NCBI GenBank assembly: GCA_946699065.1
Contig: CAMPDV010002430.1
Coordinates: 1 to 64,000 of the forward strand
Source of the DNA: Loxodes magnus
Lineage: Eukaryota; Ciliophora; Karyorelictea; Loxodida; Loxodidae
Direction of reading: 5' to 3'
DNA: 64,000 nucleotides
The notes beneath the pieces were generated by a model that searched no databases, was not told the origin of the DNA, and saw only the letters and a program-made list of their open reading frames with translations. The position numbers and the translations under genes were made by a program. Below are positions 10,101 through 43,734 of this stretch, piece by piece; the stretch's first letter is position 1, and every line of letters starts with the position of its first letter.

Positions 10101-10779
10101 CTTATTACTTCTCAAAGCATACTCCTTAAAACTGAAATTCTATCTTCTTTTCTTACTTTACTTCTTCACTTTTCTAAATACTTAGTACTTCTCAAAGCAT
10201 ACTCCTTAAAACTGAAATTCTATCTTCTTTTCTTACTTTACTTCTTCACTTTTCTAAATACTTAGTACTTCTCAAAGCATACTCCTTAAAACTGAAATTC
10301 TATGTTCTTTTCTTACTTTACTTCTTCACTTTTACAAATACTTAGTACTTCTCAAACCATACTCCTTAAAACTGAAATTCTATCTTCTTTTCTTACTTTA
10401 CTTCTTCACTTTTCTAAATACTTAGTACTTCTCAAACCATACTCCTTAAAACTGAAATTCTATCTTCTTTTCTTACTTTACTTCTTCACTTTTCTAAATA
10501 CTTAGTACTTCTCAAACCATACTCCTTAAAACTGAAATTCTATCTTCTTTTCTTACTTTACTTCTTCACTTTTCTAAATACTTATTACTTCTCAAAGCAT
10601 ACTCCTTAAAACTGAAATTCTATCTTCTTTTCTTACTTTACTTCTTCACTTTTACAAATACTTAGTACTTCTCAAACCATACTCCTTAAAACTGAAATTC
10701 TATCTTCTTTTCTTACTTTACTTCTTCACTTTTCTAAATACTTAGTACTTCTCAAACCATACTCCTTAAAACTTAAATT

Positions 10780-19779: not shown

Positions 19780-20740
19780 ACTTAGTACTTCTCAAACCAT
19801 ACTCCTTAAAACTGAAATTCTATCTTCTTTTCTTACTTTACTTCTTCACTTTTCTTAATACTTAGTACTTCTCAAAGCATACTCCTTAAAACTGAAACTC
19901 TATCTTCTTTTCTTACTTTACTTCTTCACTTTTACAAATACTTAGTACTTCTCAAAGCATACTCCTTAAAACTGAAATTCTATCTTCTTTTCTTACTTTA
20001 CTTCTTCACTTTTCTTAATACTTAGTACTTCTCAAAGCATACTCCTTAAAACTCAAATTCTATCTTCTTTTCATACTTTACTTCTTCACTTTTCTAAATA
20101 CTTAGTACTTCTCAAAGCATACTCCTTAAAACTGAAATTCTATCTTCTTTTCTTACTTTACTTCTTCACTTTTACAAATACTTAGTACTTCTCAAACCAT
20201 ACTCCTTAAAACTGAAACTCTATCTTCTTTTCTTACTTTACTTCTTCACTTTTCTAAATACTTATTACTTCTCAAAGCATACTCCTTAAAACTGAAATTC
20301 TATCTTCTTTTCTTACTTTACTTCTTCACTTTTCTAAATACTTAGTACTTCTCAAAGCATACTCCTTAAAACTGAAATTCTATCTTCTTTTCTTACTTTA
20401 CTTCTTCACTTTTCTAAATACTTAGTACTTCTCAAAGCATACTCCTTAAAACTGAAATTCTATCTTCTTTTCTTACTTTACTTCTTCACTTTTCTAAATA
20501 CTTAGTACTTCTCAAAGCATACTCCTTAAAACTGAAATTCTATCTTCTTTTCTTACTTTACTTCTTCACTTTTCTAAATACTTAGTACTTCTCAAAGCAT
20601 ACTCCTTAAAACTGAAATTCTATCTTCTTTTCTTACTTTACTTCTTCACTTTTACAAATACTTAGTACTTCTCAAACCATACTCCTTAAAACTGAAATTC
20701 TATCTTCTTTTCTTACTTTACTTCTTCACTTTTCTAAATA
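19780..20740 (+). repeat. 960-bp duplication, copy 1 (partner 22020-22980)
   Basis: Twelve monomers recur 2240 bp (28 monomers) downstream in the same order: C-at-20 at 19891/22131, ACA at 19931/22171, CTTAATA at 20011/22251, the distinctive ACTCAAATTC plus TTCATAC monomer at 20051/22291, T at 67 at 20261/22501, and ACA at 20651/22891. One difference was seen (19951 AAAGC against 22191 AAACC). Confidence 0.82.
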
Positions 20741-21469
20741 CTTAGTACTTCTCAAAGCATACTCCTTAAAACTGAAATTCTATCTTCTTTTCTTACTTTA
20801 CTTCTTCACTTTTACAAATACTTAGTACTTCTCAAACCATACTCCTTAAAACTGAAATTCTATCTTCTTTTCTTACTTTACTTCTTCACTTTTCTAAATA
20901 CTTAGTACTTCTCAAAGCATACTCCTTAAAACTGAAATTCTATCTTCTTTTCTTACTTTACTTCTTCACTTTTCTAAATACTTAGTACTTCTCAAACCAT
21001 ACTCCTTAAAACTGAAATTCTATCTTCTTTTCTTACTTTACTTCTTCACTTTTCTAAATACTTAGTACTTCTCAAAGCATACTCCTTAAAACTGAAATTC
21101 TATCTTCTTTTCTTACTTTACTTCTTCACTTTTCTAAATACTTATTACTTCTCAAAGCATACTCCTTAAAACTGAAATTCTATCTTCTTTTCTTACTTTA
21201 CTTCTTCACTTTTCTAAATACTTAGTACTTCTCAAAGCATACTCCTTAAAACTGAAATTCTATCTTCTTTTCTTACTTTACTTCTTCACTTTTCTAAATA
21301 CTTATTACTTCTCAAAGCATACTCCTTAAAACTGAAATTCTATCTTCTTTTCTTACTTTACTTCTTCACTTTTCTAAATACTTAGTACTTCTCAAAGCAT
21401 ACTCCTTAAAACTGAAATTCTATCTTCTTTTCTTACTTTACTTCTTCACTTTTCTAAATACTTATTACT

Positions 21470-22165
21470 TCTCAAAGCATACTCCTTAAAACTGAAATTC
21501 TATCTTCTTTTCTTACTTTACTTCTTCACTTTTCTTAATACTTAGTACTTCTCAAACCATACTCCTTAAAACTGAAACTCTATCTTCTTTTCATACTTTA
21601 CTTCTTCACTTTTCTTAATACTTAGTACTTCTCAAAGCATACTCCTTAAAACTGAAATTCTATCTTCTTTTCTTACTTTACTTCTTCACTTTTCTAAATA
21701 CTTAGTACTTCTCAAAGCATACTCCTTAAAACTGAAATTCTATCTTCTTTTCTTACTTTACTTCTTCACTTTTCTAAATACTTAGTACTTCTCAAACCAT
21801 ACTCCTTAAAACTGAAATTCTATCTTCTTTTCTTACTTTACTTCTTCACTTTTCTAAATACTTAGTACTTCTCAAACCATACTCCTTAAAACTGAAATTC
21901 TATCTTCTTTTCTTACTTTACTTCTTCACTTTTCTAAATACTTAGTACTTCTCAAAGCATACTCCTTAAAACTGAAATTCTATCTTCTTTTCTTACTTTA
22001 CTTCTTCACTTTTCTTAATACTTAGTACTTCTCAAACCATACTCCTTAAAACTGAAATTCTATCTTCTTTTCTTACTTTACTTCTTCACTTTTCTTAATA
22101 CTTAGTACTTCTCAAAGCATACTCCTTAAAACTGAAACTCTATCTTCTTTTCTTACTTTACTTCT
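21470..22165 (+). repeat. Dispersed duplication, copy 2 (partner 16190-16885)
   Basis: Partner of 16190-16885 at an offset of 66 monomers. Upstream the match ends at position 67 (16181 G against 21461 T). Its right end abuts and overlaps a different duplication (22020-22980), so this region is a mosaic of two source blocks. Confidence 0.75.
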
Positions 22166-22980
22166 TCACTTTTACAAATACTTAGTACTTCTCAAACCAT
22201 ACTCCTTAAAACTGAAATTCTATCTTCTTTTCTTACTTTACTTCTTCACTTTTCTTAATACTTAGTACTTCTCAAAGCATACTCCTTAAAACTCAAATTC
22301 TATCTTCTTTTCATACTTTACTTCTTCACTTTTCTAAATACTTAGTACTTCTCAAAGCATACTCCTTAAAACTGAAATTCTATCTTCTTTTCTTACTTTA
22401 CTTCTTCACTTTTACAAATACTTAGTACTTCTCAAACCATACTCCTTAAAACTGAAACTCTATCTTCTTTTCTTACTTTACTTCTTCACTTTTCTAAATA
22501 CTTATTACTTCTCAAAGCATACTCCTTAAAACTGAAATTCTATCTTCTTTTCTTACTTTACTTCTTCACTTTTCTAAATACTTAGTACTTCTCAAAGCAT
22601 ACTCCTTAAAACTGAAATTCTATCTTCTTTTCTTACTTTACTTCTTCACTTTTCTAAATACTTAGTACTTCTCAAAGCATACTCCTTAAAACTGAAATTC
22701 TATCTTCTTTTCTTACTTTACTTCTTCACTTTTCTAAATACTTAGTACTTCTCAAAGCATACTCCTTAAAACTGAAATTCTATCTTCTTTTCTTACTTTA
22801 CTTCTTCACTTTTCTAAATACTTAGTACTTCTCAAAGCATACTCCTTAAAACTGAAATTCTATCTTCTTTTCTTACTTTACTTCTTCACTTTTACAAATA
22901 CTTAGTACTTCTCAAACCATACTCCTTAAAACTGAAATTCTATCTTCTTTTCTTACTTTACTTCTTCACTTTTCTAAATA
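22020..22980 (+). repeat. 960-bp duplication, copy 2 (partner 19780-20740)
   Basis: Partner of 19780-20740. It ends where 20741 has G at position 67 and 22981 has T. Its left part also belongs to the 21470-22165 block, which shows successive overlapping duplication events. Confidence 0.82.
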
Positions 22981-25049
22981 CTTATTACTTCTCAAAGCAT
23001 ACTCCTTAAAACTGAAATTCTATCTTCTTTTCTTACTTTACTTCTTCACTTTTCTAAATACTTATTACTTCTCAAAGCATACTCCTTAAAACTGAAACTC
23101 TATGTTCTTTTCTTACTTTACTTCTTCACTTTTCTAAATACTTAGTACTTCTCAAAGCATACTCCTTAAAACTGAAACTCTATCTTCTTTTCATACTTTA
23201 CTTCTTCACTTTTCTAAATACTTATTACTTCTCAAAGCATACTCCTTAAAACTGAAATTCTATCTTCTTTTCTTACTTTACTTCTTCACTTTTTTAAATA
23301 CTTAGTACTTCTCAAAGCATACTCCTTAAAACTGAAATTCTATCTTCTTTTCATACTTTACTTCTTCACTTTTCTAAATACTTAGTACTTCTCAAAGCAT
23401 ACTCCTTAAAACTGAAATTCTATCTTCTTTTCTTACTTTACTTCTTCACTTTTCTAAATACTTAGTACTTCTCAAACCATACTCCTTAAAACTGAAATTC
23501 TATCTTCTTTTCTTACTTTACTTCTTCACTTTTCTAAATACTTAGTACTTCTCAAAGCATACTCCTTAAAACTCAAATTCTATCTTCTTTTCTTACTTTA
23601 CTTCTTCACTTTTCTAAATACTTAGTACTTCTCAAAGCATACTCCTTAAAACTGAAATTCTATCTTCTTTTCTTACTTTACTTCTTCACTTTTCTAAATA
23701 CTTTTTACTTCTCAAAATATACTCCTTAAAACTGAAATTCTATCTTCTTTTCTTACTTTACTTCTTCACTTTTCTAAATACTTATTACTTCTCAAAGCAT
23801 ACTCCTTAAAACTGAAATTCTATCTTCTTTTCTTACTTTACTTCTTCACTTTTCTAAATACTTAGTACTTCTCAAAGCATACTCCTTAAAACTGAAATTC
23901 TATCTTCTTTTCTTACTTTACTTCTTCACTTTTCTAAATACTTTTTACTTCTCAAAGCATACTCCTTAAAACTGAAATTCTATCTTCTTTTCTTACTTTA
24001 CTTCTTCACTTTTACAAATACTTAGTACTTCTCAAACCATACTCCTTAAAACTGAAATTCTATCTTCTTTTCTTACTTTACTTCTTCACTTTTCTAAATA
24101 CTTAGTACTTCTCAAACCATACTCCTTAAAACTGAAATTCTATCTTCTTTTCTTACTTTACTTCTTCACTTTTCTAAATACTTAGTACTTCTCAAACCAT
24201 ACTCCTTAAAACTGAAATTCTATCTTCTTTTCTTACTTTACTTCTTCACTTTTCTTAATACTTAGTACTTCTCAAACCATACTCCTTAAAACTGAAATTC
24301 TATCTTCTTTTCTTACTTTACTTCTTCACTTTTCTTAATACTTAGTACTTCTCAAAGCATACTCCTTAAAACTGAAACTCTATCTTCTTTTCTTACTTTA
24401 CTTCTTCACTTTTACAAATACTTAGTACTTCTCAAACCATACTCCTTAAAACTGAAATTCTATCTTCTTTTCTTACTTTACTTCTTCACTTTTCTAAATA
24501 CTTAGTACTTCTCAAACCATACTCCTTAAAACTGAAATTCTATCTTCTTTTCTTACTTTACTTCTTCACTTTTCTAAATACTTAGTACTTCTCAAACCAT
24601 ACTCCTTAAAACTGAAATTCTATCTTCTTTTCTTACTTTACTTCTTCACTTTTCTAAATACTTAGTACTTCTCAAACCATACTCCTTAAAACTGAAATTC
24701 TATCTTCTTTTCTTACTTTACTTCTTCACTTTTCTAAATACTTAGTACTTCTCAAAGCATACTCCTTAAAACTGAAATTCTATCTTCTTTTCTTACTTTA
24801 CTTCTTCACTTTTCTAAATACTTAGTACTTCTCAAAGCATACTCCTTAAAACTGAAATTCTATCTTCTTTTCTTACTTTACTTCTTCACTTTTCTAAATA
24901 CTTAGTACTTCTCAAAGCATACTCCTTAAAACTGAAATTCTATCTTCTTTTCTTACTTTACTTCTTCACTTTTCTTAATACTTAGTACTTCTCAAACCAT
25001 ACTCCTTAAAACTGAAACTCTATCTTCTTTTCATACTTTACTTCTTCAC

Positions 25050-26490
25050 TTTTCTAAATACTTAGTACTTCTCAAAACCATACTCCTTAAAACTGAAATT
25101 CTATCTTCTTTTCTTACTTTACTTCTTCACTTTTCTAAATACTTAGTACTTCTCAAACCATACTCCTTAAAACTGAAATTCTATCTTCTTTTCTTACTTT
25201 ACTTCTTCACTTTTCTAAATACTTAGTACTTCTCAAAGCATACTCCTTAAAACTGAAATTCTATCTTCTTTTCTTACTTTACTTCTTCACTTTTCTAAAT
25301 ACTTAGTACTTCTCAAACCATACTCCTTAAAACTGAAACTCTATCTTCTTTTCTTACTTTACTTCTTCACTTTTCTTAATACTTAGTACTTCTCAAAGCA
25401 TACTCCTTAAAACTGAAACTCTATTTTCTTTTCATACTTTACTTCTTCACTTTTCTAAATACTTAGTACTTCTCAAAGCATACTCCTTAAAACTGAAATT
25501 CTATCTTCTTTTCTTACTTTACTTCTTCACTTTTCTAAATACTTAGTACTTCTCAAACCATACTCCTTAAAACTGAAATTCTATCTTCTTTTCTTACTTT
25601 ACTTCTTCACTTTTCTAAATACTTAGTACTTCTCAAACCATACTCCTTAAAACTGAAATTCTATCTTCTTTTCTTACTTTACTTCTTCACTTTTACAAAT
25701 ACTTAGTACTTCTCAAAGCATACTCCTTAAAACTGAAATTCTATCTTCTTTTCTTACTTTACTTCTTCACTTTTCTAAATACTTAGTACTTCTCAAAGCA
25801 TACTCCTTAAAACTGAAATTCTATCTTCTTTTCTTACTTTACTTCTTCACTTTTCTAAATACTTAGTACTTCTCAAACCATACTCCTTAAAACTGAAATT
25901 CTATCTTCTTTTCTTACTTTACTTCTTCACTTTTCTAAATACTTAGTACTTCTCAAAGCATACTCCTTAAAACTGAAATTCTATCTTCTTTTCTTACTTT
26001 ACTTCTTCACTTTTCTAAATACTTAGTACTTCTCAAACCATACTCCTTAAAACTCAAATTCTATCTTCTTTTCTTACTTTACTTCTTCACTTTTCTAAAT
26101 ACTTAGTACTTCTCAAAGCATACTCCTTAAAACTGAAATTCTATCTTCTTTTCTTACTTTACTTCTTCACTTTTACAAATACTTAGTACTTCTCAAAGCA
26201 TACTCCTTAAAACTGAAATTCTATCTTCTTTTCTTACTTTACTTCTTCACTTTTACAAATACTTAGTACTTCTCAAACCATACTCCTTAAAACTGAAACT
26301 CTATCTTCTTTTCTTACTTTACTTCTTCACTTTTACAAATACTTTGTACTTCTCAAACCATACTCCTTAAAACTGAAATTCTATCTTCTTTTCTTACTTT
26401 ACTTCTTCACTTTTCTAAATACTTAGTACTTCTCAAAGCATACTCCTATAAACTGAATCTCTATGTTCTTTTCTTACTTTACTTCTTCAC
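25050..26490 (+). repeat. 1.44-kb duplication, copy 1 (partner 27690-29130)
   Basis: About 18 monomers recur 33 monomers (2640 bp) downstream. Markers are ACA monomers, the rare ACTTTGTACT form (26341 and 28980) and the TCCTATAAACTGAATC/TATGTTC monomer (26431 and 29081). This copy has an extra A near 25075. One monomer (about 25411-25440) differs at two sites from its partner, reading TATTTTC and TTCATAC against TATGTTC and TTCTTAC. Confidence 0.8.
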
Positions 26491-27689
26491 TTTTCTAAAT
26501 ACTTAGTACTTCTCAAACCATACTCCTTAAAACTGAAACTCTATCTTCTTTTCTTACTTTACTTCTTCACTTTTCTAAATACTTAGTACTTCTCAAAGCA
26601 TACTCCTTAAAACTGAAATTCTATCTTCTTTTCTTACTTTACTTCTTCACTTTTCTAAATACTTAGTACTTCTCAAAGCATACTCCTTAAAACTGAAATT
26701 CTATCTTCTTTTCTTACTTTACTTCTTCACTTTTCTAAATACTTAGTACTTCTCAAAGCATACTCCTTAAAACTGAAATTCTATCTTCTTTTCTTACTTT
26801 ACTTCTTCACTTTTCTAAATACTTAGTACTTCTCAAACCATACTCCTTAAAACTGAAATTCTATCTTCTTTTCTTACTTTACTTCTTCACTTTTCTAAAT
26901 ACTTAGTACTTCTCAAAGCATACTCCTATAAACTGAATCTCTATGTTCTTTTCTTACTTTACTTCTTCACTTTTCTAAATACTTAGTACTTCTCAAAGCA
27001 TACTCCTTAAAACTGAAATTCTATCTTCTTTTCTTACTTTACTTCTTCACTTTTCTAAATACTTAGTACTTCTCAAAGCATACTCCTTAAAACTGAAATT
27101 CTATCTTCTTTTCTTACTTTACTTCTTCACTTTTCTAAATACTTAGTACTTCTCAAACCATACTCCTTAAAACTGAAATTCTATCTTCTTTTCTTACTTT
27201 ACTTCTTCACTTTTCTAAATACTTAGTACTTCTCAAACCATACTCCTTAAAACTGAAATTCTATCTTCTTTTCTTACTTTACTTCTTCACTTTTCTAAAT
27301 ACTTAGTACTTCTCAAAGCATACTCCTTAAAACTGAAATTCTATCTTCTTTTCTTACTTTACTTCTTCACTTTTCTAAATACTTAGTACTTCTCAAAGCA
27401 TACTCCTTAAAACTGAAATTCTATCTTCTTTTCTTACTTTACTTCTTCACTTTTCTAAATACTTTGTACTTCTCAAACCATACTCCTTAAAACTGAAATT
27501 CTATCTTCTTTTCTTACTTTACTTCTTCACTTTTCTAAATACTTAGTACTTCTCAAAGCATACTCCTTAAAACTGAAACTCTATCTTCTTTTCTTACTTT
27601 ACTTCTTCACTTTTACAAATACTTAGTACTTCTCAAACCATACTCCTTAAAACTGAAATTCTATCTTCTTTTCTTACTTTACTTCTTCA

Positions 27690-29130
27690 CTTTTCTAAAT
27701 ACTTAGTACTTCTCAAACCATACTCCTTAAAACTGAAATTCTATCTTCTTTTCTTACTTTACTTCTTCACTTTTCTAAATACTTAGTACTTCTCAAACCA
27801 TACTCCTTAAAACTGAAATTCTATCTTCTTTTCTTACTTTACTTCTTCACTTTTCTAAATACTTAGTACTTCTCAAAGCATACTCCTTAAAACTGAAATT
27901 CTATCTTCTTTTCTTACTTTACTTCTTCACTTTTCTAAATACTTAGTACTTCTCAAACCATACTCCTTAAAACTGAAACTCTATCTTCTTTTCTTACTTT
28001 ACTTCTTCACTTTTCTTAATACTTAGTACTTCTCAAAGCATACTCCTTAAAACTGAAACTCTATGTTCTTTTCTTACTTTACTTCTTCACTTTTCTAAAT
28101 ACTTAGTACTTCTCAAAGCATACTCCTTAAAACTGAAATTCTATCTTCTTTTCTTACTTTACTTCTTCACTTTTCTAAATACTTAGTACTTCTCAAACCA
28201 TACTCCTTAAAACTGAAATTCTATCTTCTTTTCTTACTTTACTTCTTCACTTTTCTAAATACTTAGTACTTCTCAAACCATACTCCTTAAAACTGAAATT
28301 CTATCTTCTTTTCTTACTTTACTTCTTCACTTTTACAAATACTTAGTACTTCTCAAAGCATACTCCTTAAAACTGAAATTCTATCTTCTTTTCTTACTTT
28401 ACTTCTTCACTTTTCTAAATACTTAGTACTTCTCAAAGCATACTCCTTAAAACTGAAATTCTATCTTCTTTTCTTACTTTACTTCTTCACTTTTCTAAAT
28501 ACTTAGTACTTCTCAAACCATACTCCTTAAAACTGAAATTCTATCTTCTTTTCTTACTTTACTTCTTCACTTTTCTAAATACTTAGTACTTCTCAAAGCA
28601 TACTCCTTAAAACTGAAATTCTATCTTCTTTTCTTACTTTACTTCTTCACTTTTCTAAATACTTAGTACTTCTCAAACCATACTCCTTAAAACTCAAATT
28701 CTATCTTCTTTTCTTACTTTACTTCTTCACTTTTCTAAATACTTAGTACTTCTCAAAGCATACTCCTTAAAACTGAAATTCTATCTTCTTTTCTTACTTT
28801 ACTTCTTCACTTTTACAAATACTTAGTACTTCTCAAAGCATACTCCTTAAAACTGAAATTCTATCTTCTTTTCTTACTTTACTTCTTCACTTTACAAATA
28901 CTTAGTACTTCTCAAACCATACTCCTTAAAACTGAAACTCTATCTTCTTTTCTTACTTTACTTCTTCACTTTTACAAATACTTTGTACTTCTCAAACCAT
29001 ACTCCTTAAAACTGAAATTCTATCTTCTTTTCTTACTTTACTTCTTCACTTTTCTAAATACTTAGTACTTCTCAAAGCATACTCCTATAAACTGAATCTC
29101 TATGTTCTTTTCTTACTTTACTTCTTCACT
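27690..29130 (+). repeat. 1.44-kb duplication, copy 2 (partner 25050-26490)
   Basis: Partner of 25050-26490. A single T is missing near 28890 (CACTTTACAAA), so the offset changes from 2640 to 2639 bp before the shared rare ACTTTGTACT marker at 28980. The match ends at positions 78-79 near 29141. Confidence 0.8.
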
Positions 29131-31400
29131 TTTCTAAATACTTAGTACTTCTCAAAGCATACTCCTTAAAACTGAAATTCTATCTTCTTTTCTTACTTTA
29201 CTTCTTCACTTTTCTAAATACTTAGTACTTCTCAAAGCATACTCCTTAAAACTGAAATTCTATCTTCTTTTCTTACTTTACTTCTTCACTTTTACAAATA
29301 CTTAGTACTTCTCAAAGCATACTCCTTAAAACTGAAATTCTATCTTCTTTTCTTACTTTACTTCTTCACTTTTCTAAATACTTAGTACTTCTCAAACCAT
29401 ACTCCTTAAAACTGAAACTCTATCTTCTTTTCTTACTTTACTTCTTCACTTTTCTAAATACTTAGTACTTCTCAAAGCATACTCCTTAAAACTGAAATTC
29501 TATCTTCTTTTCTTACTTTACTTCTTCACTTTTCTAAATACTTAGTACTTCTCAAAGCATACTCCTTAAAACTGAAATTCTATCTTCTTTTCTTACTTTA
29601 CTTCTTCACTTTTCTAAATACTTAGTACTTCTCAAAGCATACTCCTTAAACTGAAATTCTATCTTCTTTTCTTACTTTACTTCTTCACTTTTACAAATAC
29701 TTAGTACTTCTCAAACCATACTCCTTAAAACTGAAATTCTATCTTCTTTTCTTACTTTACTTCTTCACTTTTACAAATACTTAGTACTTCTCAAACCATA
29801 CTCCTTAAAACTGAAATTCTATCTTCTTTTCTTACTTTACTTCTTCACTTTTCTAAATACTTAGTACTTCTCAAAGCATACTCCTTAAAACTGAAATTCT
29901 ATCTTCTTTTTCTTACTTTACTTCTTCACTTTTCTAAATACTTAGTACTTCTCAAAGCATACTCCTTAAAACTGAAATTCTATCTTCTTTTCTTACTTTA
30001 CTTCTTCACTTTTACAAATACTTAGTACTTCTCAAACCATACTCCTTAAAACTGAAATTCTATCTTCTTTTTCTTACTTTACTTCTTTCACTTTTACAAA
30101 TACTTAGTACTTCTCAAACCATACTCCTTAAAACTGAAATTCTATCTTCTTTTCTTACTTTACTTCTTCACTTTTCTAAATACTTAGTACTTCTCAAAGC
30201 ATACTCCTTAAAACTGAAATTCTATCTTCTTTTCTTACTTTACTTCTTCACTTTTTCTAAATACTTAGTACTTCTCAAACCATACTCCTTAAAACTGAAA
30301 TTCTATCTTCTTTTCTTACTTTACTTCTTCACTTTTCTAAATACTTAGTACTTCTCAAACCATACTCCTTAAAACTGAAATTCTATCTTCTTTTCTTACT
30401 TTACTTCTTCACTTTTCTAAATACTTAGTACTTCTCAAACCATACTCCTTAAAACTGAAATTCTATCTTCTTTTCTTACTTTACTTCTTCACTTTTCTAA
30501 ATACTTAGTACTCCTCAATCCATACTCCTTAAAACTGAAATTCTATCTTCTTTTCTTACTTTACTTCTTCACTTTTCTAAATACTTAGTACTTCTCAAAG
30601 CATACTCCTTAAAACTGAAATTCTATCTTCTTTTCTTACTTTACTTCTTCACTTTTCTAAATACTTAGTACTTCTCAAAGCATACTCCTTAAAACTGAAA
30701 TTCTATCTTCTTTTCTTACTTTACTTCTTCACTTTTCTAAATACTTAGTACTTCTCAAAGCATACTCCTTAAAACTGAAATTCTATCTTCTTTTCTTACT
30801 TTACTTCTTCACTTTTCTAAATACTTAGTACTTCTCAAAGCATACTCCTTAAAACTGAAATTCTATCTTCTTTTCTTACTTTACTTCTTCACTTTTCTAA
30901 ATACTTAGTACTTCTCAAACCATACTCCTTAAAACTCAAATTCTATCTTCTTTTCTACTTTACTTCTTCACTTTTCTAAATACTTAGTACTTCTCAAACC
31001 ATACTCCTTAAAACTGAAATTCTATCTTCTTTTCTTACTTTACTTCTTCACTTTTCTAAATACTTAGTACTTCTCAAAGCATACTCCTTAAAACTGAAAT
31101 TCTATCTTCTTTTCTTACTTTACTTCTTCACTTTTCTAAATACTTAGTACTTCTCAAAGCATACTCCTTAAAACTGAAATTCTATCTTCTTTTCTTACTT
31201 TACTTCTTCACTTTTACAAATACTTAGTACTTCTTCAAACCATACTCCTTAAAACTGAAATTCTATCTTCTTTTCTTACTTTACTTCTTCACTTTTCTAA
31301 ATACTTAGTACTTCTCAAAGCATACTCCTTAAAACTGAAATTCTATCTTCTTTTCTTACTTTACTTCTTCACTTTTCTAATACTTAGTACTTCTCAAACC
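28880..31400 (+). repeat. Indel-rich left-arm segment next to the strand switch
   Basis: About ten single-base length changes occur in 2.5 kb: missing T near 28890, missing A near 29650, extra T near 29910, two extra T near 30070 and 30087, extra T near 30256, missing T near 30955, extra T near 31233 and missing A near 31379. Most lie in runs of A or T. The preceding 24 kb of array has none, apart from one extra A near 25075. The cause may be biological (less homogenised flank) or residual homopolymer error in a long-read consensus. Confidence 0.85.
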
Positions 31401-31576
31401 ATACTCCTTAAAACTTAAATTCTATCTTCTTTTCTTACTTTACTTCTTCACTTTTCTAAATACTTAGTACTTCTCAAAGCATACTCCTTAAAACTGAAAT
31501 TCTATCTTCTTTTCTTACTTTACTTCTTCACTTTTCTAAATACTTAGTACTTCTCAAACCATACTCCTTAAAACTG

Positions 31577-32626
31577 AAATTCTATCTTCTTTTCTTACTT
31601 TACTTCTTCACTTTTCTAAATACTTATTACTTCTCAAAGCATACTCCTTAAAACTGAAATTCTATCTTCTTTTCTTACTTTACTTCTTCACTTTTCTAAA
31701 TACTTAGTACTTCTCAAACCATACTCCTTAAAACTGAAATTCTATCTTCTTTTCTTACTTTACTTCTACACTTTTCTAAATACTTATTACTTCTCAAACC
31801 ATACTCCTTAAAACTGAAATTCTATCTTCTTTTCTTACTTTACTTCTTCACTTTTCTAAATACTTATTACTTCTCAAACCATACTCCTTAAAACTGAAAC
31901 TCTATGTTCTTTTCTTACTTTACTTCTTCACTTTTACAAATACTTATTACTTCTCAAACCATACTCCTTAAAACTGAAATTCTATCTTCTTTTCTTACTT
32001 TACTTCTTCACTTTTCTAAATACTTATTACTTCTCAAACCATACTCCTTAAAACTGAAATTCTATCTTCTTTTCTTACTTTACTTCTTCACTTTTCTAAA
32101 TACTTAGAAAAGTGAAGAAGTAAAGTAAGAAAAGAAGATAGAATTTCAGTTTTAAGGAGTATGGTTTGAGAAGTAATAAGTATTTAGAAAAGTGAAGAAG
32201 TAAAGTAAGAAAAGAAGATAGAATTTCAGTTTTAAGGAGTATGGTTTGAGAAGTAATAAGTATTTGTAAAAGTGAAGAAGTAAAGTAAGAAAAGAACATA
32301 GAGTTTCAGTTTTAAGGAGTATGGTTTGAGAAGTAATAAGTATTTAGAAAAGTGAAGAAGTAAAGTAAGAAAAGAAGATAGAATTTCAGTTTTAAGGAGT
32401 ATGGTTTGAGAAGTAATAAGTATTTAGAAAAGTGTAGAAGTAAAGTAAGAAAAGAAGATAGAATTTCAGTTTTAAGGAGTATGGTTTGAGAAGTAATAAG
32501 TATTTAGAAAAGTGAAGAAGTAAAGTAAGAAAAGAAGATAGAATTTCAGTTTTAAGGAGTATGCTTTGAGAAGTAATAAGTATTTAGAAAAGTGAAGAAG
32601 TAAAGTAAGAAAAGAAGATAGAATTT
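31577..32626. repeat. Near-perfect palindrome at the array strand switch
   Basis: The axis lies between 32101 and 32102, so paired positions sum to 64203. Arms 31708-32099 and 32104-32495 (392 bp each) match base for base. They extend to 31577 and 32626 (523 bp each) with a single mismatch, 31707 G against 32496 A. The 4-base centre is ATAC. Matching alleles inside the arms include unusual ones: the C-at-20/TATGTTC/ACA monomer (31881-31960) and the A-at-48 monomer (TACTTCTACAC near 31761). Beyond the arms several mismatches appear at once. The arms could in principle extrude as a hairpin or cruciform. An assembly join is possible, but a whole-read fold-back would give symmetry far beyond 523 bp. 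Confidence 0.92.
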
Positions 32627-32983
32627 AAGTTTTAAGGAGTATGCTTTGAGAAGTAATAAGTATTTGTAAAAGTGAAGAAGTAAAGTAAGAAAAGAAGATA
32701 GAGTTTCAGTTTTAAGGAGTATGCTTTGAGAAGTACTAAGTATTTAGAAAAGTGAAGAAGTAAGTAAGAAAGAAGATAGAATTTCAGTTTTAAGGAGTAT
32801 GCTTTGAGAAGTACTAAGTATTTAGAAAAGTGTAGAAGTAAAGTAAGAAAAGAAGATAGAATTTGAGTTTTAAGGAGTATGGTTTGAGAAGTAATAAGTA
32901 TTTAGAAAAGTGAAGAAGTAAAGTAAGAAAAGAAGATAGAATTTCAGTTTTAAGGAGTATGCTTTGAGAAGTAATAAGTATTT
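32104..32983 (-). repeat. Right-arm duplication, copy B (partner 34979-35860)
   Basis: This block begins exactly at the palindrome axis spacer and repeats the allele order of 34979-35860, offset by 2875 bp at its start. It includes the TATGTTC/C-at-20/ACA monomer, two A-at-48 monomers and the following C-at-16 (GAATTTGAG) monomer. Two single A deletions near 32761-32772 make it 880 bp against 882 bp. It ends at a 56-58 difference near 32984. Its first ~523 bp also exist in inverted form at 31577-32099, giving three copies of one haplotype. Confidence 0.85.
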
Positions 32984-34978
32984 AGAAAAGTGAAGAAGTA
33001 AAGTAAGAAAAGAAGATAGAGTTTCAGTTTTAAGGAGTATGGTTTGAGAAGTACTAACTATTTAGAAAAGTGAAGAAGTAAAGTAAGAAAAGAAGATAGA
33101 GTTTAAGTTTTAAGGAGTATGGTTTGAGAAGTAATAAGTATTTAGAAAAGTGAAGAAGTAAAGTAAGAAAAGAAGATAGAATTTCAGTTTTAAGGAGTAT
33201 GGTTTGAGAAGTACTAAGTATTTAGAAAAGTGAAGAAGTAAAGTAAGAAAAGAAGATAGAGTTTCAGTTTTAAGGAGTATGGTTTGAGAAGTAATAAGTA
33301 TTTGTAAAAGTGAAGAAGTAAAGTAAGAAAAGAAGATAGAATTTCAGTTTTAAGGAGTATGCTTTGAGAAGTAATAAGTATTTGTAAAAGTGAAGAAGTA
33401 AAGTAAGAAAAGAAGAATAGAGTTTCAGTTTTAAGGAGTATGCTTTGAGAAGTACTAAGTATTTAGAAAAGTGAAGAAGTAAAGTAAGAAAAGAAGATAG
33501 AATTTCAGTTTTAAGGAGTATGGTTTGAGAAGTAATAAGTATTTAGAAAAGTGAAGAAGTAAAGTAAGAAAAGAAGATAGAATTTAAGTTTTAAGGAGTA
33601 TGCTTTGAGAAGTAATAAGTATTTGTAAAAGTGAAGAAGTAAAGTAAGAAAAGAAGATAGAATTTCAGTTTTAAGGAGTATGGTTTGAGAAGTAATAAGT
33701 ATTTAGAAAAGTGAAGAAGTAAAGTAAGAAAAGAAGATAGAATTTCAGTTTTAAGGAGTATGCTTTGAGAAGTAATAAGTATTTGTAAAAGTGAAGAAGT
33801 AAAGTAAGAAAAGAAGACAGAGTTTCAGTTTTAAGGAGTATGCTTTGAGAAGTACTAAGTATTTGTAAAGTGAAGAAGTAAAGTAAGAAAAGAAGATAGA
33901 GTTTCAGTTTTAAGGAGTATGCTTTGAGAAGTACTAAGTATTTAGAAAAGTGTAGAAGTAAAGTAAGAAAAGAAGATAGAATTTGAGTTTTAAGGAGTAT
34001 GGTTTGAGAAGTAATAAGTATTTAGAAAAGTGAAGAAGTAAAGTAAGAAAAGAAGATAGAATTTCAGTTTTAAGGAGTATGCTTTGAGAAGTAATAAGTA
34101 TTTAGAAAAGTGAAGAAGTAAAGTAAGAAAAGAAGATAGAATTTCAGTTTTAAGGAGTATGCTTTGAGAAGTAATAAGTATTTAGAAAAGTGAAGAAGTA
34201 AAGTAAGAAAAGAAGATAGAATTTAAGTTTTAAGGAGTATGCTTTGAGAAGTAATAAGTATTTGTAAAAGTGAAGAAGTAAGTAAGAAAGAAGATAGAGT
34301 TTCAGTTTTAAGGAGTATGCTTTGAGAAGTACTAAGTATTTAGAAAAGTGAAGAAGTAAAGTAAGAAAAGAAGATAGAATTTCAGTTTTAAGGAGTATGG
34401 TTTGAGAAGTAATAAGTATTTAGAAAAGTGAAGAAGTAAAGTAAGAAAAGAACATAGAGTTTCAGTTTTAAGGAGTATGGTTTGAGAAGTAATAAGTATT
34501 TAGAAAAGTGAAGAAGTAAAGTAAGAAAAGAAGATAGAATTTCAGTTTTAAGGAGTATGGTTTGAGAAGTAATAAGTATTTAGAAAAGTGAAGAAGTAAA
34601 GTAAGAAAAGAAGATAGAATTTCAGTTTTAAGGAGTATGGTTTGAGAAGTAATAAGTATTTGTAAAAGTGAAGAAGTAAAGTAAGAAAGAACATAGAGTT
34701 TCAGTTTTAAGGAGTATGCTTTGAGAAGTAATAAGTATTTGTAAAAGTGAAGAAGTAAAGTAAGAAAAGAACATAGAGTTTCAGTTTTAAGGAGTATGGT
34801 TTGAGAAGTAATAAGTATTTAGAAAAGTGAAGAAGTAAAGTAAGAAAAGAACATAGAGTTTCAGTTTTAAGGAGTATGGTTTGAGAAGTAATAAGTATTT
34901 AGAAAAGTGAAGAAGTAAAGTAAGAAAAGAAGATAGAGTTTCAATTTTAAGGAGTATGCTTTGAGAAGTACTAAGTAT

Positions 34979-35860
34979 TTAGAAAAGTGAAGAAGTAAAG
35001 TAAGAAAAGAAGATAGAATTTCAGTTTTAAGGAGTATGGTTTGAGAAGTAATAAGTATTTAGAAAAGTGAAGAAGTAAAGTAAGAAAAGAAGATAGAATT
35101 TCAGTTTTAAGGAGTATGGTTTGAGAAGTAATAAGTATTTGTAAAAGTGAAGAAGTAAAGTAAGAAAAGAACATAGAGTTTCAGTTTTAAGGAGTATGGT
35201 TTGAGAAGTAATAAGTATTTAGAAAAGTGAAGAAGTAAAGTAAGAAAAGAAGATAGAATTTCAGTTTTAAGGAGTATGGTTTGAGAAGTAATAAGTATTT
35301 AGAAAAGTGTAGAAGTAAAGTAAGAAAAGAAGATAGAATTTCAGTTTTAAGGAGTATGGTTTGAGAAGTAATAAGTATTTAGAAAAGTGAAGAAGTAAAG
35401 TAAGAAAAGAAGATAGAATTTCAGTTTTAAGGAGTATGCTTTGAGAAGTAATAAGTATTTAGAAAAGTGAAGAAGTAAAGTAAGAAAAGAAGATAGAATT
35501 TAAGTTTTAAGGAGTATGCTTTGAGAAGTAATAAGTATTTGTAAAAGTGAAGAAGTAAAGTAAGAAAAGAAGATAGAGTTTCAGTTTTAAGGAGTATGCT
35601 TTGAGAAGTACTAAGTATTTAGAAAAGTGAAGAAGTAAAGTAAGAAAAGAAGATAGAATTTCAGTTTTAAGGAGTATGCTTTGAGAAGTACTAAGTATTT
35701 AGAAAAGTGTAGAAGTAAAGTAAGAAAAGAAGATAGAATTTGAGTTTTAAGGAGTATGGTTTGAGAAGTAATAAGTATTTAGAAAAGTGAAGAAGTAAAG
35801 TAAGAAAAGAAGATAGAATTTCAGTTTTAAGGAGTATGCTTTGAGAAGTAATAAGTATTT
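34979..35860 (-). repeat. Right-arm duplication, copy C (partner 32104-32983)
   Basis: Full-length copy of the block found at the hinge. Here it is embedded in ordinary right-arm sequence, without a palindrome. Upstream it continues with a normal TATTT, where the hinge has TACTT. It therefore shows what the uninverted haplotype looks like and supports a right-arm origin for the hinge. The same opening three monomers recur again near 40659-40860. Confidence 0.85.
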
Positions 35861-38800
35861 GTAAAAGTGAAGAAGTAAAGTAAGAAAAGAACATAGAGTT
35901 TCAGTTTTAAGGAGTATGGTTTGAGAAGTAATAAGTATTTAGAAAAGTGAAGAAGTAAAGTAAGAAAAGAACATAGAGTTTCAGTTTTAAGGAGTATGGT
36001 TTGAGAAGTACTAAGTATTTGTAAAAGTGAAGAAGTAAAGTAAGAAAAGAAGATAGAATTTCAGTTTTAAGGAGTATGCTTTGAGAAGTAATAAGTATTT
36101 AGAAAAGTGAAGAAGTAAAGTAAGAAAAGAAGATAGAATTTCAGTTTTAAGGAGTATGCTTTGAGAAGTAATAAGTATTTAGAAAGTGAAGAAGTAAAGT
36201 AAGAAAAGAAGATAGAATTTCAGTTTTAAGGAGTATGCTTTGAGAAGTAATAAGTATTTGTAAAAGTGAAGAAGTAAAGTAAGAAAAGAAGATAGAGTTT
36301 CAGTTTTAAGGAGTATGCTTTGAGAAGTACTAAGTATTTAGAAAAGTGAAGAAGTAAAGTAAGAAAAGAAGATAGAATTTCAGTTTTAAGGAGTATGGTT
36401 TGAGAAGTACTAAGTATTTAGAAAAGTGTAGAAGTAAAGTAAGAAAAGAAGATAGAATTTCAGTTTTAAGGAGTATGGTTTGAGAAGTACTAAGTATTTA
36501 GAAAAGTGAAGAAGTAAAGTAAGAAAAGAAGATAGAATTTCAGTTTTAAGGAGTATGGTTTGAGAAGTAATAAGTATTTAGAAAAGTGAAGAAGTAAAGT
36601 AAGAAAAGAAGATAGAATTTCAGTTTTAAGGAGTATGCTTTGAGAAGTAATAAGTATTTAGAAAAGTGAAGAAGTAAAGTAAGAAAAGAAGATAGAGTTT
36701 CAGTTTTAAGGAGTATGCTTTGAGAAGTACTAAGTATTTAGAAAAGTGTAGAAGTAAAGTAAGAAAAGAAGATAGAATTTCAGTTTTAAGGAGTATGCTT
36801 TGAGAAGTACTAAGTATTTAGAAAAGTGAAGAAGTAAAGTAAGAAAAGAAGATAGAATTTCAGTTTTAAGGAGTATGCTTTGAGAAGTAATAAGTATTTA
36901 GAAAAGTGAAGAAGTAAAGTAAGAAAAGAAGATAGAATTTAAGTTTTAAGGAGTATGCTTTGAGAAGTAATAAGTATTTAGAAAAGTGAAGAAGTAAAGT
37001 AAGAAAGAAGATAGAGTTTCAGTTTTAAGGAGTATGCTTTGAGAAGTACTAAGTATTTAGAAAAGTGAAGAAGTAAAGTAAGAAAAGAAGATAGAATTTA
37101 AGTTTTAAGGAGTATGCTTTGAGAAGTACTAAGTATTTAGAAAAGTGTAGAAGTAAAGTAAGAAAAGAAGATAGAATTTGAGTTTTAAGGAGTATGGTTT
37201 GAGAAGTAATAAGTATTTAGAAAAGTGAAGAAGTAAAGTAAGAAAAGAAGATAGAATTTCAGTTTTAAGGAGTATGCTTTGAGAAGTAATAAGTATTTGT
37301 AAAAGTGAAGAAGTAAAGTAAGAAAAGAAGATAGAGTTTCAGTTTTAAGGAGTATGCTTTGAGAAGTACTAAGTATTTAGAAAAGTGAAGAAGTAAAGTA
37401 AGAAAAGAAGATAGAATTTAAGTTTTAAGGAGTATGCTTTGAGAAGTACTAAGTATTTGTAAAAGTGAAGAAGTAAAGTAAGAAAAGAAGATAGAATTTC
37501 AGTTTTTAAGGAGTATGCTTTGAGAAGTACTAAGTATTTGTAAAAGTGAAGAAGTAAAGTAAGAAAAGAAGATAGAATTTCAGTTTTAAGGAGTATGCTT
37601 TGAGAAGTAATAAGTATTTAGAAAAGTGAAGAAGTAAAGTAAGAAAAGAAGATAGAATTTCAGTTTTAAGGAGTATGGTTTGAGAAGTACTAAGTATTTA
37701 GAAAAGTGTAGAAGTAAAGTAAGAAAAGAAGATAGAATTTCAGTTTTAAGGAGTATGCTTTGAGAAGTACTAAGTATTTAGAAAAGTGAAGAAGTAAAGT
37801 AAGAAAAGAAGATAGAATTTCAGTTTTAAGGAGTATGCTTTGAGAAGTAATAAGTATTTAGAAAAGTGAAGAAGTAAAGTAAGAAAAGAAGATAGAATTT
37901 CAGTTTTAAGGAGTATGGTTTGAGAAGTAATAAGTATTTAGAAAAGTGAAGAAGTAAAGTAAGAAAAGAAGATAGAATTTCAGTTTTAAGGAGTATGCTT
38001 TGAGAAGTACTAAGTATTTGTAAAAGTGAAGAAGTAAAGTAAGAAAAGAAGATAGAATTTCAGTTTTAAGGAGTATGCTTTGAGAAGTACTAAGTATTTG
38101 TAAAAGTGAAGAAGTAAAGTAAGAAAAGAAGATAGAATTTCAGTTTTAAGGAGTATGCTTTGAGAAGTAATAAGTATTTAGAAAAGTGAAGAAGTAAAGT
38201 AAGAAAAGAAGATAGAATTTAAGTTTTAAGGAGTATGCTTTGAGAAGTAATAAGTATTTGTAAAAGTGAAGAAGTAAAGTAAGAAAAGAAGATAGAGTTT
38301 CAGTTTTAAGGAGTATGCTTTGAGAAGTACTAAGTATTTAGAAAAGTGAAGAAGTAAAGTAAGAAAAGAAGATAGAATTTAAGTTTTAAGGAGTATGCTT
38401 TGAGAAGTACTAAGTATTTGTAAAAGTGAAGAAGTAAAGTAAGAAAAGAAGATAGAATTTCAGTTTTAAGGAGTATGCTTTGAGAAGTACTAAGTATTTG
38501 TAAAAGTGAAGAAGTAAAGTAAGAAAAGAAGATAGAATTTCAGTTTTAAGGAGTATGGTTTGAGAAGTACTAAGTATTTGTAAAAGTGAAGAAGTAAAGT
38601 AAGAAAAGAAGATAGAATTTCAGTTTTAAGGAGTATGGTTTGAGAAGTAATAAGTATTTGTAAAAGTGAAGAAGTAAAGTAAGAAAAGAAGATAGAATTT
38701 CAGTTTTAAGGAGTATGGTTTGAGAAGTACTAAGTATTTAGAAAAGTGTAGAAGTAAAGTAAGAAAAGAAGATAGAATTTCAGTTTTAAGGAGTATGCTT

Positions 38801-38949
38801 TGAGAAGTACTAAGTATTTCAGAAAAGTGAAGAAGTAAAGTAAGAAAAGAAGATAGAATTTCAGTTTTAAGGAGTATGCTTTGAGAAGTAATAAGTATTT
38901 AGAAAAGTGAAGAAGTAAAGTAAGAAAAGAAGATAGAATTTCAGTTTTA

Positions 38950-39350
38950 AGGAGTATGGTTTGAGAAGTAATAAGTATTTAGAAAAGTGAAGAAGTAAAG
39001 TAAGAAAAGAAGATAGAGTTTCAGTTTTAAGGAGTATGCTTTATAAGTACTAAGTATTTAGAAAAGTGAAGAAGTAAAGTAAGAAAAGAAGATAGAATTT
39101 CAGTTTTAAGGAGTATGGTTTGAGAAGTACTAAGTATTTAGAAAAGTGTAGAAGTAAAGTAAGAAAAGAAGATAGAATTTCAGTTTTAAGGAGTATGGTT
39201 TGAGAAGTAATAAGTATTTAGAAAAGTGAAGAAGTAAAGTAAGAAAAGAAGATAGAATTTCAGTTTTAAGGAGTATGCTTTGAGAAGTAATAAGTATTTA
39301 GAAAAGTGAAGAAGTAAAGTAAGAAAAGAAGATAGAGTTTCAGTTTTAAG
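38950..39350 (-). repeat. Long-range duplication, copy 1 (partner 58395-58790)
   Basis: Defined by a rare shared defect, CTTTATAAG in place of CTTTGAGAAG, at 39040 and 58481. It is followed in both by the same run of monomers: AAACC/G-at-67, then A-at-48, then T-at-67, and so on. The offset is 19,441 bp. The match ends where one copy has AAAGC and the other AAACC (about 39355/58797). Confidence 0.72.
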
Positions 39351-42300
39351 GAGTATGCTTTGAGAAGTACTAAGTATTTAGAAAAGTGAAGAAGTAAAGT
39401 AAGAAAAGAAGATAGAGTTTCAGTTTTAAGGAGTATGCTTTGAGAAGTACTAAGTATTTGTAAAAGTTAAGAAGTAAAGTAAGAAAAGAAGATAGAATTT
39501 CAGTTTTAAGGAGTATGCTTTGAGAAGTACTAAGTATTTGTAAAAGTGAAGAAGTAAAGTAAGAAAAGAAGATAGAATTTAAGTTTTAAGGAGTATGCTT
39601 TGAGAAGTACTAAGTATTTGTAAAAGTGAAGAAGTAAAGTAAGAAAAGAAGATAGAATTTCAGTTTTAAGGAGTATGCTTTGAGAAGTAATAAGTATTTG
39701 TAAAAGTGAAGAAGTAAAGTAAGAAAAGAAGATAGAATTTCAGTTTTAAGGAGTATGCTTTGAGAAGTACTAAGTATTTAGAAAAGTGAAGAAGTAAAGT
39801 AAGAAAAGAAGATAGAATTTAAGTTTTAAGGAGTATGCTTTGAGAAGTACTAAGTATTTGTAAAAGTGAAGAAGTAAAGTAAGAAAAGAAGATAGAATTT
39901 AAGTTTTAAGGAGTATGCTTTGAGAAGTACTAAGTATTTGTAAAAGTGAAGAAGTAAAGTAAGAAAAGAAGATAGAATTTAAGTTTTAAGGAGTATGCTT
40001 TGAGAAGTAATAAGTATTTGTAAAAGTGAAGAAGTAAAGTAAGAAAAGAAGATAGAGTTTCAGTTTTAAGGAGTATGCTTTGAGAAGTACTAAGTATTTA
40101 GAAAAGTGAAGAAGTAAAGTAAGAAAAGAAGATAGAATTTCAGTTTTAAGGAGTATGGTTTGAGAAGTACTAAGTATTTAGAAAAGTGTAGAAGTAAAGT
40201 AAGAAAAGAAGATAGAATTTGAGTTTTAAGGAGTATGGTTTGAGAAGTAATAAGTATTTAGAAAAGTGAAGAAGTAAAGTAAGAAAAGAAGATAGAATTT
40301 CAGTTTTAAGGAGTATGCTTTGAGAAGTAATAAGTATTTAGAAAAGTGAAGAAGTAAAGTAAGAAAAGAAGATAGAGTTTCAGTTTTAAGGAGTATGGTT
40401 TGAGAAGTACTAAGTATTTGTAAAAGTGAAGAAGTAAAGTAAGAAAAGAAGATAGAATTTCAGTTTTAAGGAGTATGGTTTGAGAAGTAATAAGTATTTA
40501 GAAAAGTGAAGAAGTAAAGTAAGAAAAGAACATAGAATTTAAGTTTTAAGGAGTATGGTTTGAGAAGTAATAAGTATTTGTAAAAGTGAAGAAGTAAAGT
40601 AAGAAAAGAAGATAGAGTTTCAGTTTTAAGGAGTATGCTTTGAGAAGTACTAAGTATTTAGAAAAGTGAAGAAGTAAAGTAAGAAAAGAAGATAGAATTT
40701 CAGTTTTAAGGAGTATGGTTTGAGAAGTAATAAGTATTTAGAAAAGTGAAGAAGTAAAGTAAGAAAAGAAGATAGAATTTCAGTTTTAAGGAGTATGGTT
40801 TGAGAAGTAATAAGTATTTGTAAAAGTGAAGAAGTAAAGTAAGAAAAGAACATAGAGTTTCAGTTTTAAGGAGTATGCTTTGAGAAGTAATAAGTATTTG
40901 TAAAAGTGAAGAAGTAAAGTAAGAAAAGAAGATAGAGTTTCAGTTTTAAGGAGTATGGTTTGAGAAGTAATAAGTATTTAGAAAAGTGAAGAAGTAAAGT
41001 AAGAAAAGAAGATAGAATTTCAGTTTTAAGGAGTATGGTTTGAGAAGTAATAAGTATTTAGAAAAGTGAAGAAGTAAAGTAAGAAAAGAAGATAGAATTT
41101 CAGTTTTAAGGAGTATGGTTTGAGAAGTAATAAGTATTTAGAAAAGTGAAGAAGTAAAGTAAGAAAAGAAGATAGAATTTCAGTTTTAAGGAGTATGGTT
41201 TGAGAAGTAATAAGTATTTAGAAAAGTGAAGAAGTAAAGTAAGAAAAGAACATAGAGTTTCAGTTTTAAGGAGTATGCTTTGAGAAGTAATAAGTATTTG
41301 TAAAAGTGAAGAAGTAAAGTAAGAAAAGAAGATAGAATTTCAGTTTTAAGGAGTATGGTTTGAGAAGTAATAAGTATTTAGAAAAGTGAAGAAGTAAAGT
41401 AAGAAAAGAAGATAGAATTTCAGTTTTAAGGAGTATGGTTTGAGAAGTAATAAGTATTAGTAAAAGTGAAGAAGTAAAGTAAGAAAAGAACATAGAGTTT
41501 CAGTTTTAAGGAGTATGGTTTGAGAAGTAATAAGTATTTAGAAAAGTGAAGAAGTAAAGTAAGAAAAGAACATAGAGTTTCAGTTTTAAGGAGTATGCTT
41601 TGAGAAGTAATAAGTATTTGTAAAAGTGAAGAAGTAAAGTAAGAAAAGAACATAGAGTTTCAGTTTTAAGGAGTATGGTTTGAGAAGTAATAAGTATTTA
41701 GAAAAGTGAAGAAGTAAAGTAAGAAAAGAAGATAGAATTTCAGTTTTAAGGAGTATGCTTTGAGAAGTAATAAGTATTTAGAAAAGTGAAGAAGTAAAGT
41801 AAGAAAAGAAGATAGAATTTCAGTTTTAAGGAGTATGCTTTGAGAAGTACTAAGTATTTAGAAAAGTGAAGAAGTAAAGTAAGAAAAGAAGATAGAATTT
41901 AAGTTTTAAGGAGTATGCTTTGAGAAGTACTAAGTATTTAGAAAAGTGAAGAAGTAAAGTAAGAAAAGAAGATAGAATTTCAGTTTTAAGGAGTATGCTT
42001 TGAGAAGTAATAAGTATTTAGAAAAGTGAAGAAGTAAAGTAAGAAAAGAAGATAGAATTTCAGTTTTAAGGAGTATGCTTTGAGAAGTAATAAGTATTTG
42101 TAAAAGTGAAGAAGTAAAGTAAGAAAAGAAGATAGAGTTTCAGTTTTAAGGAGTATGCTTTGAGAAGTAATAAGTATTTAGAAAAGTGAAGAAGTAAAGT
42201 AAGAAAAGAACATAGAGTTTCAGTTTTAAGGAGTATGGTTTGAGAAGTACTAAGTATTTAGAAAAGTGAAGAAGTAAAGTAAGAAAAGAAGATAGAATTT

Positions 42301-43734
42301 AAGTTTTAAGGAGTATGCTTTGAGAAGTACTAAGTATTTAGAAAAGTGAAGAAGTAAAGTAAGAAAAGAAGATAGAATTTAAGTTTTAAGGAGTATGGTT
42401 TGAGAAGTAATAAGTATTTAGAAAAGTGAAGAAGTAAAGTAAGAAAAGAAGATAGAGTTTCAGTTTTAAGGAGTATGGTTTGAGAAGTACTAAGTATTTG
42501 TAAAAGTGAAGAAGTAAAGTAAGAAAAGAAGATAGAGTTTCAGTTTTAAGGAGTATGGTTTGAGAAGTAATAAGTATTTAGAAAAGTGAAGAAGTAAAGT
42601 AAGAAAAGAAGATAGAATTTCAGTTTTAAGGAGTATGGTTTGAGAAGTAATAAGTATTTGTAAAAGTGAAGAAGTAAAGTAAGAAAAGAAGATAGAATTT
42701 CAGTTTTAAGGAGTATGCTTTGAGAAGTACTAAGTATTTAGAAAAGTGAAGAAGTAAAGTAAGAAAAGAAGATAGAATTTCAGTTTTAAGGAGTATGCTT
42801 TGAGAAGTAATAAGTATTTGTAAAAGTGAAGAAGTAAAGTAAGAAAAGAAGATAGAATTTCAGTTTTAAGGAGTATGGTTTGAGAAGTACTAAGTATTTG
42901 TAAAAGTGAAGAAGTAAAGTAAGAAAAGAACATAAAGTTTCAGTTTTAAGGAGTATGGTTTGAGAAGTACTAAGTATTTGTAAAAGTGAAGAAGTAAAGT
43001 AAGAAAAGAAGATAGAGTTTCAGTTTTAAGGAGTATGGTTTGAGAAGTACTAAGTATTAAGAAAAGTGAAGAAGTAAAGTAAGAAAAGAAGATAGAATTT
43101 CAGTTTTAAGGAGTATGGTTTGAGAAGTAATAAGTATTTAGAAAAGTGAAGAAGTAAAGTAAGAAAAGAAGATAGAATTTCAGTTTTAAGGAGTATGCTT
43201 TGAGAAGTACTAAGTATTTAGAAAAGTGAAGAAGTAAAGTAAGAAAAGAAGATAGAATTTCAGTTTTAAGGAGTATGCTTTGAGAAGTAATAAGTATTTG
43301 TAAAAGTGAAGAAGTAAAGTAAGAAAAGAAGATAGAATTTCAGTTTTAAGGAGTATGGTTTGAGAAGTACTAAGTATTTAGAAAAGTGAAGAAGTAAAGT
43401 AAGAAAAGAACATAGAGATTCAGTTTATAGGAGTATGCTTTGAGAAGTACTAAGTATTTAGAAAAGTGAAGAAGTAAAGTAAGAAAAGAACATAGAGTTT
43501 CAGTTTTAAGGAGTATGGTTTGAGAAGTAATAAGTATTTGTAAAAGTGAAGAAGTAAAGTAAGAAAAGAAGATAGAGTTTCAGTTTTAAGGAGTATGGTT
43601 TGAGAAGTACTAAGTATTTAGAAAAGTGAAGAAGTAAAGTAAGAAAAGAAGATAGAATTTCAGTTTTAAGGAGTATGGATTGAGGAGTACTAAGTATTTG
43701 TAAAAGTGAAGAAGTAAAGTAAGAAAAGAAGATA

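Follow-up and report, generated by a model that had tools for sequence, protein, structure and literature searches.

A strand switch in a satellite array of Loxodes magnus: anatomy of the palindrome and a recurrent candidate snap-back site at its axis

The 64,000-nt stretch of Loxodes magnus DNA analysed here (the window) belongs to contig C2430, which ends at position 69,672, and is filled over its whole length by an 80-bp satellite as identified by TRF. The same analysis follows the array on the + strand up to position 32107 and as its reverse complement from position 32097, with the flip of orientation at 32101/32102. This organization raises the question of how a satellite array came to change strand in its interior, and whether the change was made in the chromosome or in the assembly. 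The first-pass annotation had placed the flip at the same point and described arms of 392 bp without mismatch, extended to 523 bp with one mismatch; both TRF and ungapped pairing of the arms agree with that description. Counted from 32101/32102, mismatches occur at distances of 2, 395, 526, 543, 555 and onwards. The first three therefore define a 4-nt centre (ATAC, 32100–32103), perfect arms of 392 bp each (31708–32099 and 32104–32495) and longer arms whose sole mismatch is at 31707 (Table 1).

Gapped alignment of the arms outside the 523 bp reveals an immediate divergence of ~3.5% that persists outward from 31576. This value is near the usual difference between the left and right arrays, whose monomers differ by a mean of 3.29 per 80 positions (188,069 pairs). 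The 523-bp symmetry is beyond chance array similarity. Blocks of five monomers with at most one difference were found in 4 of 184,605 left-right pairs, and all four match the junction block to its mirror or to a second segment of the right array, named copy C. The longest inverted exact matches measure 394 bp (copy C) and 392 bp (mirror), while the next of the 1,081 cross-arm matches of at least 150 bp reaches 319 bp.

Table 1. Features of the satellite array and of the strand-switch palindrome in the window.
Feature	Position	Strand	Remark
Left array, 80-bp satellite, C/T-rich strand on +	1..31576	+	G at unit position 50 in ~90% of copies
In-register changeover from left-type to right-type haplotype (probable)	31577..31707	+	Mirror identity ends at 31576
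Palindrome left arm, right-type alleles	31577..32099	+	523 bp, one mismatch; perfect from 31708
Axis CTAA-ATAC-TTAG, putative snap-back priming site	32096..32107	+	4-bp stem, 4-nt loop native to monomer
Palindrome right arm	32104..32626	-	Mirror pairing with left arm
Copy C, same haplotype, uninverted	34979..35638	-	Exact repeat of 32104-32763
Right array, C/T-rich strand on -	32627..64000	-	T at unit position 50 in ~55% of copies

Other irregularities are found within the arrays. The strongest register break seen in the left array is at window positions 240–443, where the unit spacings are 56, 36 and 111 bp. The longest direct exact repeat, 2109 bp at an offset of 2080, is at window position 2945; another, of 959 bp with an offset of 800, is at 10779, and further long ones are present in positions 61600–69672 of the contig, partly past the window. 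Such long direct repeats within each arm are of the kind left by recent unequal exchange or by assembly stitching. Within the window, Rfam gave no match at the gathering score and no tRNA was found. The unit, used as query in a DNA similarity search, returned no hit, probably because very common words are skipped in such a search.

The left half of the palindrome had been described as carrying alleles typical of the right arm, and the typing of individual sites bears this out (counts for the right arm run to the contig end at 69,672, past the window). ACTTCTACAC, which contains the A-at-48 allele reported to be the only one in the left arm, is found in 0 of 393 cases in 1–31577 and once within 31577–32101, against 24 of 454 in the right arm. 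Base-level comparison also shows that T at 67 with AAACC (CTTATTACTTCTCAAACC) is not common on the left, as was first noticed: among units typed at its sites, it is carried by 2 of 375 in the left array, by 101 of 431 in the right one and by 4 of 6 within 31577–32101. The log-likelihoods of the four monomers in 31737–32056 sum to +8.4 in favour of the right array, the left mean being −1.28 per monomer, and the monomer at 31577 scores +1.4, that at 31657 −1.4. T at 31627 is an allele of ~10% on the left. The loss of mirror identity at 31576, the rarity of T at 31627 in the left array and the monomer scores give good grounds for placing the left/right boundary near 31577–31707, off the symmetry axis, as the first-pass annotation had proposed. 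The mismatch itself, G at 31707, is present in 90% of the left array and 43% of the right array; being common to both, it fixes no boundary alone, and may be a boundary mark or a point change. Both arms of the palindrome carry right-type alleles with one mismatch in 523 bp, as expected of fold-back priming, in which both arms start out identical and stem from one side of the junction.

The axis CTAA-ATAC-TTAG is the only inverted repeat with a stem of at least 4 and a loop of 3–10 nt in the G50 monomer (loops of 0–20 nt were scanned). It pre-exists in the parent sequence, being natural in copy C as well as in the G50 monomer. Copy C, rightly recognized before as the same haplotype uninverted, is identical over 660 bp to the right side of the junction, and over 880 bp (to 32983) the two differ by two single-A indels and nothing else. 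On the C/T strand, 31708–32101 equals copy C and the identity persists through CTAAATACTTAG to 32107. Past CTAAATACTTAG copy C continues with TACTTC, whereas the window junction turns back into AAAAGTG; the C/T strand of copy C has an unbroken CTAAATACTTAGTAC, the normal continuation of the array.

This anatomy argues strongly for a snap-back at the micro-hairpin CTAA-ATAC-TTAG, and equally strongly for right-type DNA as its source. The C/T-rich strand of a right-type array would have had its 3′ terminus at CTAAATACTTAG, TTAG would have paired with CTAA over the loop ATAC, and a polymerase would have copied the strand back on itself, a copying that is read from the sequence and whose enzyme and place we infer. 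The product would most likely have entered the data as one palindromic molecule, either folded back in the library or derived from a broken end closed by a hairpin. An assembler tolerating 96% identity could then have joined one arm, in register, to another satellite read near 31577–31707, a plausible stitch because the accepted identity is close to the divergence between array copies. The 523-bp symmetry would be what stitching left of a longer palindrome. We favour this account, a snap-back molecule stitched to a different array of the same satellite, as the probable origin of the locus; that the join to the left array in particular is an assembly stitch is held with moderate confidence.

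The assembly searched for similar junctions (705,730,643 bases, 7,843 contigs) is very probably the published L. magnus macronuclear assembly, which is reported to comprise 706 Mbp, including 231 Mbp of low-complexity tandem repeats, and to derive from CCS reads assembled by Falcon at a minimum identity of 96 and polished by Racon with reads of mapping quality of at least 20 (PMC11441545). The COX1 of the searched assembly has its nearest PDB counterparts in chains of 7w5z and 8b6h, which are from Tetrahymena. Its authors state that the size gap between their two nuclear assemblies likely reflects tandem-repeat misassembly (PMC11441545). Scans with exact-anchor patterns in four head-to-head and two tail-to-tail phases, complemented by a search for the exact 29-mer of the junction, identified 48 strand switches in related satellites, with patterns that reach centres of up to 25–30 bases. 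Thirteen head-to-head switches, and two further ones from the 29-mer search, are directly after the shared core; four are at another phase, and the scans at two other phases gave 0 and 0, counts that are weak outside C2430-like arrays as anchor frequency depends on the array (ACTCCTTAAAACT is found 0.31 times per unit in C584 and 0 times in C4193). Tail-to-tail switches number 25 in the micro-hairpin segment and four in another segment. In total, 40 of the 48 centres (13 + 2 + 25) lie between the shared core and TACTTCTCAA, at about unit positions 36–51, and eight elsewhere; since phases and anchors were unequally searchable, this excess is to be read as clustering and provides no measured rate. 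The segment from the core to TACTTCTCAA is the one that holds the micro-hairpins. The core itself (TTCTTTTCTTACTTTACTTCTTCACTTTTCTA), ~32 bp long and near-constant, is common to different satellite units that differ in their inter-core sequence; it is found in the window and at loci L007, L031, L034, L037 and L039, whose apparent periods are 162–484 bp. As these loci were found by patterns inside the core, other families could be missed.

Many different axes are found among the 48 junctions, 30 of which have a central loop no longer than 4 nt. The exact 29-mer axis of C2430 is present in four contigs amid different flanking satellite variants, so the junction has recurred. What is new here is the precise position of the fold-back, CTAA-ATAC-TTAG, and the finding that it recurs in four contigs. 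Two of the 48 junctions, those of C584 and C1637, came from searching C2430's own axis, and their loops are of 4 nt. A second recurrent fold-back site in the same segment is the tail-to-tail centre GTA-ATAAG-TAC, or its complement, common to C709, C3656, C3933, C4169 and C4594. Contig C2500 (68,330 bp) has tail-to-tail switches at 8714 and 59590, both 8.7 kb inward from an end of the contig, which implies a further head-to-head switch between them that is absent from the scan lists.

The junctions are unevenly placed in their contigs. The nearer contig end is 7.6–24.3 kb away in 41 of 44 junctions (median of the 44, 14.0 kb) and in 45 of the 48 overall, the remaining four being 13.1–15.9 kb from an end. 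The three exceptions, more than 25 kb from the nearer end, are C2430, C584 and C2103. None of the 44 is closer than 7.5 kb, a cut-off picked post hoc, relative to 14.4 expected under uniform placement. The junction lies at 0.41–1.0 of the half-length in the 30 contig entries up to 60 kb and is spread over 0.09–0.92 in the 14 contigs above 60 kb, so that the end-distance signal comes mainly from the short contigs.

Comparison of the arms over 1.4 kb at 19 loci found them near-identical at 14, with differences that are mostly indels; these loci look like single palindromic molecules. In the same comparison the arms of C2430 diverge after 525 bp, those of C584 and C3811 have ~1% substitutions and many gap bases, and those of C5337 and C5934 are ~4% divergent, starting right at the axis. 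Substitutions in C584 amount to 7, 14, 17, 20 and 38 per kb with rising distance from the axis. For C584, C5337 and C5934 an older, real event is conceivable. The entire 14-kb short arm of C4193 is palindromic. In C1637 the palindrome reaches the end of the contig, interrupted by ~3.2 kb of arms that are 3–7% different with a net 80-bp shift; this contig looks like an in-register replacement inside a single palindromic molecule, a mosaic like that proposed for C2430.

Taken together, the recurrence of near-identical palindromes, the placement of the junctions relative to contig ends and the 96% overlaps make a stitch between two reads a simpler explanation of the in-register haplotype change near 31577 than a second template switch in the cell. 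Falcon appends read overhangs. Speaking against the stitch, the nearer contig end is 32.1 kb from the C2430 junction and the other 37.6 kb, so that the contig extends well past it in both directions; the wide spread of junctions in the longer contigs and the old-looking arms of C584, C5337 and C5934 are further points against it. True palindromes break assemblies near their axis as well. The long near-identical arms that a palindromic read would give, ending about a read length from the axis, are seen in the group, whereas in C2430 identity stops at 523 bp.

The same extension on both sides suits a true chromosomal fold-back, in which a resected break in the right array would have snapped back at CTAA/TTAG, ~525 bp would have been copied and the junction inherited, the new end recombining in register with another array in a second step (a two-step template switch). 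The anatomy of the sequence would be the same, and inverted duplications formed via fold-back at short inverted repeats are reported in yeast (PMC10622511, PMC11724301). This origin is possible but doubtful when set against the near-identical palindromes at most of the junctions examined, the position of 45 of the 48 junctions within a limited distance of a contig end and the tolerance of the assembler for 4% mismatch. The earlier proposal that right-arm DNA was copied back on itself is supported; a chromosomal event is not established in view of 48 similar junctions and 96%-identity overlaps.

An old head-to-head junction whose 525 bp next to the axis were homogenised by gene conversion between the arms, with right alleles written over left ones, is improbable. 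Such conversion could account for the abrupt end of identity at 31576, for the diverged arms of C5337 and C5934, and for the climb of substitutions away from the axis of C584, which is what conversion near the axis would give. Against it stand the position of the axis, which coincides with a recurrent micro-hairpin prone to snap-back, and the independent existence of the right haplotype in copy C.

That the palindromes record the sequencer reading through hairpin-closed ends, natural to satellite-ended DNA molecules, is very improbable. The short central loops at 30 of 48 junctions, the median distance to the nearer contig end, the inverted COX1 pairs of two mitochondrial contigs and the report of the assembly authors that they did not find Loxodes telomeres (PMC11441545) would all suit this explanation; the axis sequence differs among contigs, the C2430 junction is internal, and fold-backs made in the library are simpler. 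A more specific form of the idea, in which hairpin-closed satellite ends arising by snap-back at micro-inverted repeats of the unit act as telomere substitutes, palindromic contigs are read-throughs of these ends and junctions like that of C2430 are ends copied or fused into arrays, has only the slightest probability.

Three other candidates were dismissed: an ordinary inversion of an array segment as sole cause, which fails to predict 523-bp identity beside the axis; a mirror duplication of the whole arm, as gapped arms past the first kb differ by 14–38 substitutions per kb up to 31 kb, and left-arm 400-bp blocks beyond the first one have no near-identical partner (5–18 edits when shifted by about −0.4 to +0.8 kb); and a whole-genome-amplification chimera, unlikely because 6mA was reportedly called from the PacBio reads (PMC11441545).

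Inverted pairs were also observed in mitochondrial contigs. COX1 is present as an inverted pair around the middle of C5505 (25,467 bp; L041) and of C5958 (24,585 bp; L042), with 9,534 and 9,520 bp, respectively, between the inner COX1 ends. C5505 has an AT-rich asymmetric centre of roughly 230 bp between GC-rich inverted repeats, and the outer 167 bases of its 801-bp centre match exactly. The layout of these contigs resembles a mitochondrial dimer joined head to head or a linear mtDNA with hairpin ends. They were discarded as proof of random fold-back, since the nearly equal spacing and the asymmetric centre of C5505 suggest a specific structure.

A recurrent, exactly located micro-hairpin gives tests of how satellite arrays reverse a defined place to look. 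Strand switches in a repeat-rich assembly built on 96% overlaps should be called inversions only once individual reads prove them, and raw reads could reveal whether satellite-ended Loxodes molecules are hairpin-closed. Among the matches listed for literature mentioning both Loxodes and satellite there is no title on Loxodes satellite DNA.

In another ciliate system, a short inverted repeat reportedly gives rise to a large programmed rDNA palindrome; the likeness lies in a ciliate making a large palindrome from a short inverted repeat, the difference in programmed rDNA there and a satellite here. The satellite of Tribolium madens is described as having macro-dyad symmetries with thousands of conserved inversion sites, confirmed on raw HiFi reads (PMC13081366). 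Satellite arrays switch strand in both species and extend over tens of kb, whereas the Loxodes axes vary and are known from the assembly alone; a conserved inversion site of the Tribolium type was not found, the exact 29-mer axis being in 4 contigs only and with different flanks. Palindromic long reads are a known artefact, reported for 0.5% of the reads in a non-amplified PacBio control (PMC6218980). Those due to amplification or to missed SMRTbell adapters share with the present junctions as a group inverted arms of read length and damage to assemblies; unlike adapter-derived reads, C2430 turns at a micro-inverted repeat native to the satellite, with a loop of 4 nt, and at no adapter. Fold-back priming at short inverted repeats is reported to generate inverted duplications in yeast, together with secondary repeat-mediated rearrangements (PMC10622511, PMC11724301). 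Although the site in C2430 is part of a repeated satellite unit, has a stem of just 4 bp and is only a candidate for fold-back in a cell, it has in common with the yeast events an axis at a short inverted repeat whose spacer is small, the copying back of one strand and a second junction elsewhere.
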